NCBI RefSeq assembly: GCF_004115745.1
Contig: NZ_QXIL01000010.1
Span: 1 to 64,000 of the forward strand
DNA from: Levilactobacillus suantsaii
GTDB taxonomy: Bacteria; Bacillota; Bacilli; Lactobacillales; Lactobacillaceae
Length of the DNA: 64,000 nucleotides
Direction of reading: 5' to 3'
Shown here: piece after piece, positions 33,652-53,434 of the stretch
How the letters are laid out: each line of letters opens with the position of its first letter
Numbering within the stretch: position 1 is the stretch's first letter
Program-made: the position numbers and the translations under genes
The notes under the pieces: generated by a model
What the model was told of the DNA's origin: nothing
What the model saw: only the letters and a program-made list of their open reading frames with translations
Database searches by the model: none

Positions 33652-34437
33652 ATGAAATTTATGACTCATGACCACGTCCGCCTGGATTACAGTGATACCG
33701 GTGGTGACGGCCAACCGGTGGTGTTACTAACCGGAATCGGTGGCGCAAAGGAAATTTGGCGCGACCAACTGACCTGGCTACAAGACCTGGGCTACCGGGT
33801 GCTGGCGTTAGACGCCCGGAATCAAGGGGCATCCCAGCACACCGTCAAGGGCCGGCGGATATCGCGCCACGCTATCGATTTGCACGACTTTTTGACCGGA
33901 CTCGAATTGACCCAACCGATTCTAATCGGTAACTCGATGGGCGCCGCCACCCTGTTCGCCTACGTGTCCCTCTTCGGTGACGCCGATTTAGCCGCCATCG
34001 TGGACGTTGACCAAAGTCCCAAGATGATCAGCGATGAGACCTGGGCGTACGGTTTCAACGACTTAACTTGGGAGACGTTCCCCAGCCTGCTTAAATTTCC
34101 CTTGGGACCGGCCACAGCCACGCGTATCAACGACCAAACCTATGCCGACGTCAAACAGGTTGAAGCCGCGCACCCTTACGATGCGGACCTCAACCTGCCC
34201 TTCTTATTGGACCACGCGTTTCAAGATTGGCGCGATATTGTCGCCCAACTCCACGTACCTTTTTTCGTGATTGCCGGAGAAAAATCTCCCTATTTTAACC
34301 CTAAATTCGCGGCCGTGACCGCCCAACTTGCGCCCCACGGCCAAAGTACCGTAATTTCGAACGCCGGACACATCGTTTTAGCCGAACAGCCCCATGCCTT
34401 TAACCAAGCTTTAGGGAAGTTCCTCCAAACGCTCTAA
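33652..34437 (+). CDS. Alpha/beta hydrolase
   Basis: A 261-residue hydrolase. The nucleophile elbow is GNSMGA, the oxyanion region LLTGIGGAKEIW, and the acid/base pair is indicated by AGHIVLAEQPHAF (His) with an Asp before it. The frame is open back to 33547, but that would start inside the upstream terminator; the ATG at 33652 follows AGAAGGAG. It converges on the SorC-type regulator, the stops overlapping by four bases. Substrate unknown. Confidence 0.85.
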   Translation: MKFMTHDHVRLDYSDTGGDGQPVVLLTGIGGAKEIWRDQLTWLQDLGYRVLALDARNQGASQHTVKGRRISRHAIDLHDFLTGLELTQPILIGNSMGAATLFAYVSLFGDADLAAIVDVDQSPKMISDETWAYGFNDLTWETFPSLLKFPLGPATATRINDQTYADVKQVEAAHPYDADLNLPFLLDHAFQDWRDIVAQLHVPFFVIAGEKSPYFNPKFAAVTAQLAPHGQSTVISNAGHIVLAEQPHAFNQALGKFLQTL

Positions 34438-35378
34438 ACATCCGCCGCGAGGATACGCTGAGCGATGGCCTCATTCAGGACGATGTCGGTCACTAAATGC
34501 CCGCGCAAGGCCCCTAACGCCGCGTCAGTCTTGAACTTATTGCGGATGACCCCCAACCGGCGCGGGGTCTTCAAAATTTGGCTGATGGGCAAACCCACGG
34601 TCTTATCGGCGTCCTGATTCAAGAAGTGGCCCTGGCGGTCATACGGTCGGCCATACAGGATGCCTGCGATATCATCGGCGGCCACTCCTGGGAAAATCTC
34701 CCCGTAGTGGTCCTGCCAGACCGGAATCGACTCAATCGACGCCAACGTACCAAACCCACAGAACAACGCGTTCATCTTTTGCGCCGCCTGAAAAGCCGGG
34801 GCTAACGCTGGTTCTTGGGGCAGCGCCGCGCGAATCTGGTCATTGATGACGTATAATGGGCTGGCCAACGTGACGTAGCGACTTCCATAACGAGCGGCCG
34901 CCTTTTCGACCATTTGGCGCGTGCCGGCCACCGAACTGTACTTCATATTGTCGCCCACAAACTGGGTGAAGGTCAGGTCGTTTCTGATTTTACCGCGCAG
35001 TTGGTCGATGATGCTAAAGACCGTGCTCCCCCAAGCTACGCCGACCACCTGGGATTGGTCGATCAACGACTGGACCTGCATCGCCGCGTACTGGACGATG
35101 TTAGTCGCATCCTCTGCTGGGTTCTCGGCGTTGTACAAAATGAACGCGTTAGTCAGCCCATAACGATGGCGAAATTCCGCCTCCAGCGTCACGTTTCTCG
35201 CAATCGGATCGTTGACGGTAATGGTCACGACCCCCGTCTTCAAAGCTTCGTCCAAGTGCTTCGTAATCAGGTACCGACTGAGGTGATACTTGGTGGATAG
35301 ATCGGCGATTGACAGCTGCGCCAGGTAGTAATCCTGGGCAATCATCGCCAGTAATTTTTGGTGCGAAATGTCATCCAT
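34434..35378 (-). CDS. SorC-family regulator, CitI-like
   Basis: A 314-residue regulator with an N-terminal helix-turn-helix (LSTKYHLSRYLITKHLDEAL, about 25-44) and a sugar-binding-type C-terminal domain (VGVAWGSTVFSIIDQL and ATEGICGFGTLAS-like FCGFGTLASIES). In Weissella and Lactococcus the SorC-type CitI/CitR activates divergent cit genes when citrate is present. Its position, back to back with mae-citCXG across an AT-rich gap, gives the same inference here. The frame opens at 35411; ATG 35378 has AAAGGGGGA. Confidence 0.85.
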   Translation of the reverse strand: MDDISHQKLLAMIAQDYYLAQLSIADLSTKYHLSRYLITKHLDEALKTGVVTITVNDPIARNVTLEAEFRHRYGLTNAFILYNAENPAEDATNIVQYAAMQVQSLIDQSQVVGVAWGSTVFSIIDQLRGKIRNDLTFTQFVGDNMKYSSVAGTRQMVEKAAARYGSRYVTLASPLYVINDQIRAALPQEPALAPAFQAAQKMNALFCGFGTLASIESIPVWQDHYGEIFPGVAADDIAGILYGRPYDRQGHFLNQDADKTVGLPISQILKTPRRLGVIRNKFKTDAALGALRGHLVTDIVLNEAIAQRILAADV

Positions 35379-35529
35379 GTCACTTTCCCCCTTTACGTTT
35401 TTGTAAGTCAAATTGATTTTACCACAAAACCACTTTTTAAAAATAGCAAAATAACTTCATATTTTTGAATTTTGCAAAAAATCAGCGTATGCTTAAACAG
35501 TACAATAAGAGAAAGAAGGCTGGCAACAC
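35379..35529. promoter_or_regulatory. divergent AT-rich citrate control region
   Basis: The 151 bases between the CitI-like gene and mae are strongly AT-rich, with TTTTTAAAAA and several ATTTTG/CAAAAT stretches. AT-rich operators are known for CitI in related bacteria. A -10 TACAAT at about 35502 lacks a good -35, as expected for an activator-dependent promoter. Confidence 0.45.
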
Positions 35530-52426: not shown

Positions 52427-52457
52427 CAAAAAAGACCCGAAAAATTTTCGAGTCCTT
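52427..52457 (-). terminator. terminator after LDH-family gene
   Basis: On the minus strand AAGGACTCGAAAA pairs imperfectly with TTTTCGGGTCTT and is followed by TTTT. Confidence 0.75.
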
Positions 52458-52480
52458 CCATAAATTCCTGATTCAACTGC

Positions 52481-53434
52481 TTAGTTCGTGGCCATGGCAC
52501 CGTTCAAGACTTTCGCCATTGCTTGAGCCGAAGCCGTCATTTGATCCTGTTCATCAGCCGACAGGTCTAATGGTAAGACTTGAGCCACACCCTGCGCGTT
52601 GATCAACGCTGGGGTCCCTAAGTACAAGTCGTGCACGCCGTATTCGCCGTCCAAGTGGGCACCGACGGGTAAGACCACGTTTTCGTTGTTCAAAATAGCC
52701 TTGGTAATCCGCGTCAAGCAGGTCGCGACCCCGTAAAAGGTGGCACCCTTCAAGCCGATGATTTGGCCACCCTTCTTCCGCGAGCCATCTTCGGTCTGCT
52801 TCAGGTCGTCTAAGCTCAAGCCCTTAGCTTGGGCCACGTCCAGTAAGCTTTGGTCGCCGACCTTGGCTGGGGAGTAAGCGGCGAATTGGGTGTCACCGTG
52901 TTCTCCGATGACGTTGACGTCTAACGTTTGAGGTGCCAAGTCTAATTGCTTACCCAACGCCACGCGTAAGCGGACCGTATCCAGCGACGTCCCAGTACCT
53001 AGGACACGGTTAGCGGGGAAGCCGGATAATTTCTGGGTGGCGGCCGTTAAGATGTCAACGGGGTTAGCGGAAACCAAGAAAATGCCATTGAACCCACTGT
53101 CGACCACGGGGCCCACGATAGTCTTCAAAATCTTCAAGTTCTTTTGGACCAAATCTAAGCGGGTCTCACCTGGCTTGCGGGGAACCCCGGCTGTGATGAC
53201 CACGATATCGGCATCCTTGGTATCAGCGTAGGTACCGGCGTGGACCCATTTCGGTTGACCCCAAAGTTGGGTGTCTTCCAAATCCAACGCGTCGCCTTCG
53301 CTATGATCCTTGGCGATATCGACAATGACTAACTCGTCCATGACAGTTTGTTGCATCATGAGCACAGCGTATGCTGACCCCACAGAACCGTCACCGACCA
53401 ACACAACTTTTTGGTTTTTCGTTTGTTTTTGCAA
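52481..53434 (-). CDS. LDH/MDH-family dehydrogenase with Arg at the specificity position
   Basis: NAD-dependent 2-hydroxyacid dehydrogenase, 317 residues. [14 protein letters not shown] is the nucleotide loop and [10 protein letters not shown] carries the catalytic His. L-lactate dehydrogenases have Gln at position 102 (wording APQKPGETR); here it is Arg86 (VPRKPGETR; codon at 53179-53177). Gln to Arg at this site is known to switch Bacillus LDH toward oxaloacetate/malate. The loop before QIIG is also altered (KKGG). So malate dehydrogenase activity is likely, though annotation pipelines would call it LDH. TTG start follows AAAGGGAG; a GTG at 53455 lies before that site. Confidence 0.85.

Follow-up and report, generated by a model that had tools for sequence, protein, structure and literature searches.

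How would citrate be taken up and disposed of by the genes that lie together on one contig of Levilactobacillus suantsaii, and do these genes make up one system or several? The question is raised by a stretch of 64,000 nucleotides (contig NZ_QXIL01000010.1 of assembly GCF_004115745.1, positions 1 to 64,000), here called the window, which belongs to a draft genome of 2.43 Mb in 70 contigs with a completeness of 99.88%. The original prediction, made from the DNA letters of the window, had placed at 34434..53434 a complete module leading from citrate to both succinate and acetate, with pyruvate oxidase as a member. Judging from the sequence, the cluster of interest, which spans 34434-53455, very probably serves the co-fermentation of citrate, which would be converted into acetate and oxaloacetate and then into pyruvate or succinate, and the pyruvate oxidase gene pox and its neighbors fadS and lysR2 would be separate from that pathway.

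The gene list and coordinates of the original prediction proved correct when compared with the open reading frames and with profile matches to Pfam and NCBIfam: each gene it named is a full open frame at its place. Its left bound was also right, but its right bound falls inside the gene of a protein with the lactate dehydrogenase (LDH) fold, which ends at 53455, and it overlooked fadS, situated between pox and fumC. The genes for citrate cleavage and their adjoining regulators are as follows.

34434..35411, minus strand: sorC, a CitI-like regulator of the SorC/DeoR family, divergent from mae (Pfam PF04198, 150 bits)
35530..36681, plus strand: mae, a soluble protein of the malic enzyme family, Mae/CitM (PF00390 and PF03949)
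36706..37767, plus strand: citC, citrate lyase ligase (TIGR00124, 313.5 bits, cut-off 262.1)
37773..38357, plus strand: citX, holo-ACP synthase of citrate lyase (TIGR03124, 176 bits, cut-off 105.25)
38357..39205, plus strand: citG, triphosphoribosyl-dephospho-CoA synthase (TIGR03125, 304.4 bits, cut-off 272.3)
39333..40232, minus strand: lysR1, a LysR regulator downstream of citF (PF00126/PF03466)
40262..41821, minus strand: citF, citrate lyase alpha subunit (TIGR01584, 810 bits, cut-off 501)
41790..42788, minus strand: citE, citrate lyase beta subunit (TIGR01588, 481.7 bits, cut-off 443.4, match beginning at residue 35)
42707..43018, minus strand: citD, citrate lyase acyl carrier protein (TIGR01608, 116.7 bits, cut-off 63.5)

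All six genes citC, citD, citE, citF, citX and citG score above at least one curated NCBIfam cut-off, and the real start of citE probably lies downstream of the start of its open frame, which overlaps citD. Enzymes of the CitDEF family, matured by CitC, CitX and CitG, cleave citrate into acetate and oxaloacetate, and the products of the window are expected to do the same. Mae is likely an oxaloacetate decarboxylase, as its family and its position beside citC suggest, and would open the first route, from oxaloacetate to pyruvate and CO2. The second route would need three more enzymes.

44824..46218, minus strand: frdA, a soluble heme-less fumarate reductase (NF005064, PRK06481, 655.5 bits, cut-off 542)
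46411..47808, minus strand: fumC, a class II fumarase (TIGR00979, 592 bits, below the cut-off of 665; aspartase models score lower)
52481..53455, minus strand: an mdh-like gene for a malate-type dehydrogenase of the LDH family (PF00056/PF02866)

Oxaloacetate might thus be reduced to malate by the enzyme of malate dehydrogenase (MDH) type, after which FumC would dehydrate malate to fumarate and FrdA would turn fumarate into succinate, by which reducing equivalents would be disposed of. As claimed in the original prediction, both oxaloacetate branches are encoded together in this locus. In the LDH fold, Arg instead of Gln at the substrate-specificity position marks the malate type. The protein of the window carries Arg in the loop, at residue 89, where structure 1ez4, which we take to be the LDH of L. 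pentosus, carries Gln, and Arg is found at that position in all 40 mdh relatives from the citF loci described below. The open frame of FrdA consists of 470 codons and encodes neither a signal peptide nor an FMN or heme domain, and therefore the possibility that FrdA is an extracellular flavinylated reductase was ruled out, since such a frame leaves no room for the additional parts. The genome has two ApbE genes at other places; no link between them and the FrdA of the window was found. Six residues are given as essential in Osm1 and Fcc3 in the accessible portion of a published study (PMC6242907), and all six are present in FrdA as H256, E271, R274, R295, H398 and R438. FrdA thus shares the six catalytic residues with flavocytochrome c3 (Fcc3) as well as with the yeast heme-less soluble fumarate reductases Osm1/Frd1, which it also resembles in lacking a heme domain; its electrons may be supplied by free flavin in reduced form or by a flavoenzyme, as has been demonstrated for Osm1. 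The residue check started from 27 match rows, comprising 23 orthologues and four paralogues with 28-29% identity, which were dropped. Such distant FrdA-like paralogues (28-29%), with several catalytic residues missing, occur near citF in Furfurilactobacillus loci L024, L031, L033 and L034 (about 13.5-14.7 kb).

The entry of citrate could be explained by the gene between frdA and citD.

43193..44611, minus strand: a DASS-family transporter with the exchanger signature R146, H376 and H385 (TIGR00785, 413.8 bits, above the cut-off)

The solved chain closest to this protein is LaINDY (6wtw/6wu1, 527 bits). An Arg and a pair of His residues at the sodium sites are described as specific to exchangers in the available part of the LaINDY paper (PMC7553777), and R146, H376 and H385 align with R159, H392 and H401 of LaINDY if the chain numbering is 3 higher than that of the paper, as it presumably is. 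The exchanger type named in the original prediction is thus borne out by the signature residues: as in LaINDY/CitT exchangers of the DASS-E type, Arg and two His would stand in place of the sodium ions, a likeness drawn from the LaINDY alignment. The protein would take up citrate in exchange for a C4-dicarboxylate, in all likelihood succinate or a similar one, and citrate/succinate exchange is the activity we infer for it; the export of succinate may, as the original prediction had it, drive the uptake. CitP, whose absence had been asserted, is indeed missing from the whole draft genome, in which the 2HCT model PF03390 has 0 matches (the same search is positive in Lactococcus lactis and Bacillus subtilis); the CitMHS and MaeP families were not searched genome-wide. 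A likely carrier that is an exchanger other than CitP is relevant for predicting acid and flavor in ferments.

Whether these genes keep company elsewhere was evaluated at citF loci, for which the best 80 of the 157 found were used, with 10 kb on each side where the contig allowed and with relatives scored by identity thresholds. The counts of presence are lower bounds because contig or flank ends cut some of the loci. Relatives of citD and citE were found in all 80, of citC in 75, sorC (at least 35% identity) in 73, citX in 68, citG in 54, mae in 47, DASS and mdh in 40 each, fumC and frdA in 23 each, lysR1 in eight, and pox and fadS in three each; citD, citE, frdA, fumC, DASS and mdh occur all together in 18. 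From the side of frdA, fumC lies within 1.5 kb of it in 21 of the best 30 frdA loci, the window included, and DASS does so in 11. These conserved neighborhoods, together with the family scores, rule out chance adjacency or misannotation as an account of the gene set. The original prediction would have been contradicted if frdA, fumC and citT had never adjoined citDEF in relatives, but they do so, together with mdh, in 18 of the 80 loci; an association of frdA with citF at the level of whole genomes was not seen.

The latter result is the first of several that weigh against the proposed pathway. In an even draw of 251 Lactobacillaceae genomes from a larger group, frdA was detected in 134, citF in 105 and both in 54 (E up to 1e-150 for FrdA and for CitF; the lists lie partly at 52-57% and 51-62% identity, respectively, and some members may be paralogues), which gives an odds ratio of 0.87 (Fisher p = 0.61). 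The coupling is therefore one of clustering in some lineages and is not obligate. An electron donor for FrdA did not emerge from the analysis. The exact substrate of FrdA is less certain because G270 replaces T377 of Fcc3, a residue that contacts the substrate carboxylate; T377 is outside the essential six, and Gly is found in all 22 orthologues that span the site (one of the 23 is too short there). The mdh-like protein scores 408.9, above the cut-off of 339, with the L-LDH model PRK00066 and 257.3, below the cut-off of 283, with the MDH model PRK06223, and its assignment as MDH therefore rests on the residue rule and on context. Finally, the LaINDY structures contain malate and alpha-ketoglutarate, which are dicarboxylates, according to the same partially available paper (PMC7553777), and its accessible text does not show citrate being carried.

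One alternative is that two independent operons are mere neighbors: a citrate lyase operon (citI-mae-citCXG and citDEF-lysR1) served by another citrate carrier, and a malate/fumarate operon (DASS-frdA-fumC, with mdh) through which malate or fumarate would be taken up and succinate released. The dicarboxylates in LaINDY agree with it, as does the occurrence of frdA without citF in 80 and of citF without frdA in 51 of the 251 genomes; where both are present, they lie within 15 kb of each other in only 17 of the 54 genomes and within 60 kb in 21. Among 35 Levilactobacillus genomes, citF is found in 14 and a FrdA orthologue (E up to 1e-60) in four, and 10 of the 14 citF genomes have no FrdA orthologue. 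Relatives of DASS and mdh are, however, commoner at citF loci than those of frdA, and the other carrier that the idea calls for would not be CitP. We regard two mere neighbors as a possibility to be kept in mind, of distinctly lower probability than even, and the co-fermentation of citrate by a joint set of enzymes as the explanation to prefer. The two branches frequently share a locus, though not as a rule, and the gene set for disposing of electrons from citrate to succinate has been rearranged among Lactobacillaceae and is not one fixed operon.

The pyruvate oxidase gene and its neighbors, which lie between fumC and the mdh-like gene, require a different explanation.

48310..49167, minus strand: fadS, a FAD synthetase without a riboflavin-kinase domain (PF06574, 146 bits; no PF01687)
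49246..51144, minus strand: pox, pyruvate oxidase (TIGR02720, 896 bits, cut-off 638, match beginning at residue 59; the real start is probably near 50994)
51379..52296, minus strand: lysR2, a LysR regulator upstream of pox (best NCBIfam model CidR, far below its cut-off)

It might be supposed, as the original prediction implies, that all these genes, pyruvate oxidase among them, form one regulon for the conversion of citrate into acetate. The genes pox-fadS-fumC-frdA-DASS-citDEF do share a strand, and their order and strand are conserved in L. zymae and L. acidifarinae. In genome G034, however, the matching convergent cluster has mdh directly upstream of fumC, and pox, fadS and lysR2 are absent between them; fumC of L. 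raoultii has pox and a cut-off fadS next to it on the other strand; and fadS follows pox in six genomes of three other genera. Control signals in the region point in both directions.

48065..48080, minus strand: a cre-like site for CcpA upstream of fumC, an exact match to WTGNNARCGNWWWCAW, which we take to be the cre consensus
48260..48289, minus strand: a terminator-like hairpin after fadS, with 11 pairs and a T tail, separating fadS from fumC

Two near-match cre-like sites upstream of pox would suit a common regulon together with that of fumC, whereas the hairpin argues against it. Sites with at most one mismatch numbered 11 against 4.15 expected, a palindromic site being counted twice, and none of 100 shuffles reached 11; further ones occur farther left in the window, at 10992-11007 and 13008-13023. 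The terminator scan gave 11 against 25.2 by chance, fewer than in shuffles, with the hairpin between fadS and fumC as the strongest, and the promoter scan gave 17 against 12.0 (standard deviation 4.2), which is not informative. CcpA may repress fumC and pox, and CitI and lysR1 are probably responsive to citrate or to products derived from it. A single regulon that includes pox is highly improbable, and was rejected on the grounds of the G034 cluster, the hairpin and the linkage of fadS to pox. Membership of pyruvate oxidase in the module was thus not borne out: the cluster of G034, colinear in all other respects, has none of pox, fadS and lysR2, and fadS accompanies pox, so that the three look like a separate cassette for a flavin-dependent pyruvate oxidase set inside the citrate cluster. 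lysR2, which is 47% identical to lysR1, appears to be a looser part of it, because a relative (54%) lies upstream of pox-fadS in only one of the six stretches from other genera (L134 of L133-L138, genome G071, where the pox next to fadS is split in two pieces).

The association of fadS with pox is close. In the 251 genomes, fadS (E up to 1e-60) is found in eight and pox lies directly upstream in all eight; relatives of pox (E up to 1e-200) are found in 72, and G212 and G267, which have close pox genes (77-78%), are not among the eight. At the genus level, an additional FAD synthetase (68-100% identity) is present in three of the 35 genomes, all of which match fadS weakly via RibF, and in a draw of 295 genomes from the order fadS was found in four, all Lactobacillaceae, one of which (G112, borderline) aligns like bifunctional RibF. 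The RibF of the host is a separate gene, 36-37% identical to fadS; the FAD synthetase half of bifunctional RibF is also present in fadS, whereas its riboflavin-kinase half is below the cut-off there. With PF01687 (cut-off 19.6), none of eight fadS copies passed, the best reaching 13.3 bits, and both true RibF controls did; that test did not cover the fadS copies from G140, G033 and L. raoultii, the last of which is cut off. We suggest, tentatively and at somewhat less than even probability, that fadS, a RibF paralogue that has lost its riboflavin kinase and travels with POX, is dedicated to cofactor supply and would raise or load FAD for POX, and perhaps for the adjacent FrdA. The literature searched, which most subscription papers lie outside, contained nothing relevant on a pox-linked FAD synthetase, and one without a kinase that occurs only beside pyruvate oxidase would be a straightforward example of private cofactor supply that lends itself to testing.

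The CitF of the window shares 95% identity with its counterparts in L. zymae and L. acidifarinae, against 82-88% with those of other Levilactobacillus, Secundilactobacillus, Furfurilactobacillus and Lentilactobacillus, which places the organism near L. zymae. The split cluster might have been acquired horizontally from a Furfurilactobacillus-like donor, replacing the mae-citCDEFXG operon that is standard in the genus: the CitF tree groups the zymae group with Furfurilactobacillus (support 91/93), and lysR1 follows citF in Furfurilactobacillus too (68-70% identity), its eight relatives at citF loci (68-85%) being from two Levilactobacillus, five Furfurilactobacillus and one metagenome-assembled genome. 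An AU test, however, did not reject a single Levilactobacillus clade of CitF (p = 0.115), and in a quick tree the shortest path from Mae of the zymae group leads, though only narrowly, to other Levilactobacillus. Such a transfer is conceivable but less probable than not.

A second, different citrate lyase locus exists elsewhere in the genome (L004:9066-12906, contig C6), with citD, citE, citF and citC 42-59% identical to those of the window and with a CcpC-like LysR gene adjoining; its citF is frame-shifted near the end and its citC is split over two frames. Relatives of this citF at 80-89% identity occur in four of 250 other family genomes searched. Just upstream, at L004:5136-7977, lies a gene for a LacZ-type beta-galactosidase that is split over two frames.

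Compared with known systems, the cluster is complete in its genes, as the original prediction stated, but the set is not new. For Lactiplantibacillus plantarum 80, citDEF, mae, citT, citGX, fumC, frdC and mdh have been published, and a route from citrate to succinate was proposed by the authors, as far as the accessible text of that report goes (PMC4604094). The likeness extends to citDEF, mae, citT, citGX, and fumC and fumarate reductase lying between, with mdh in the genome; the gene order differs, and transposases and an ABC transporter are interspersed there. The formation of succinate from citrate by some L. plantarum strains via citrate lyase, MDH, fumarase and fumarate reductase is also mentioned in the available part of a review (PMC7555314). 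Titles and abstract openings on Levilactobacillus zymae and citrate contained none on this locus. The divergent layout of SorC and mae, with the regulator beside mae, is known for CitI in lactic acid bacteria, namely Weissella, from a review that was accessible in part (PMC10798043). The citI-mae-citCDEFXG operons of lactic acid bacteria (the Weissella, Oenococcus and L. brevis type) contain the same enzymes and a divergent SorC/CitI beside mae, whereas citDEF of the window lies on the opposite strand and converges on mae-citCXG, so that a single co-directional mae-citCDEFXG operon does not exist here. This order is rare, in keeping with the original prediction, which had set it apart from the familiar citrate operons: of the 75 loci that have citC, 73 carry it on the same strand as citF and two, those of L. 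zymae and L. acidifarinae, on the opposite one, and the convergent split order is also present in G034. Seen by locus, citDEF lies on the opposite strand at L005, L006 and L085 too. Judging by the spacing of the genes, G033 and G001 appear to correspond to the L. zymae and L. acidifarinae loci. The function and the pathway are thus already known, and only the convergent split gene order is unusual, a local variant of these known systems.

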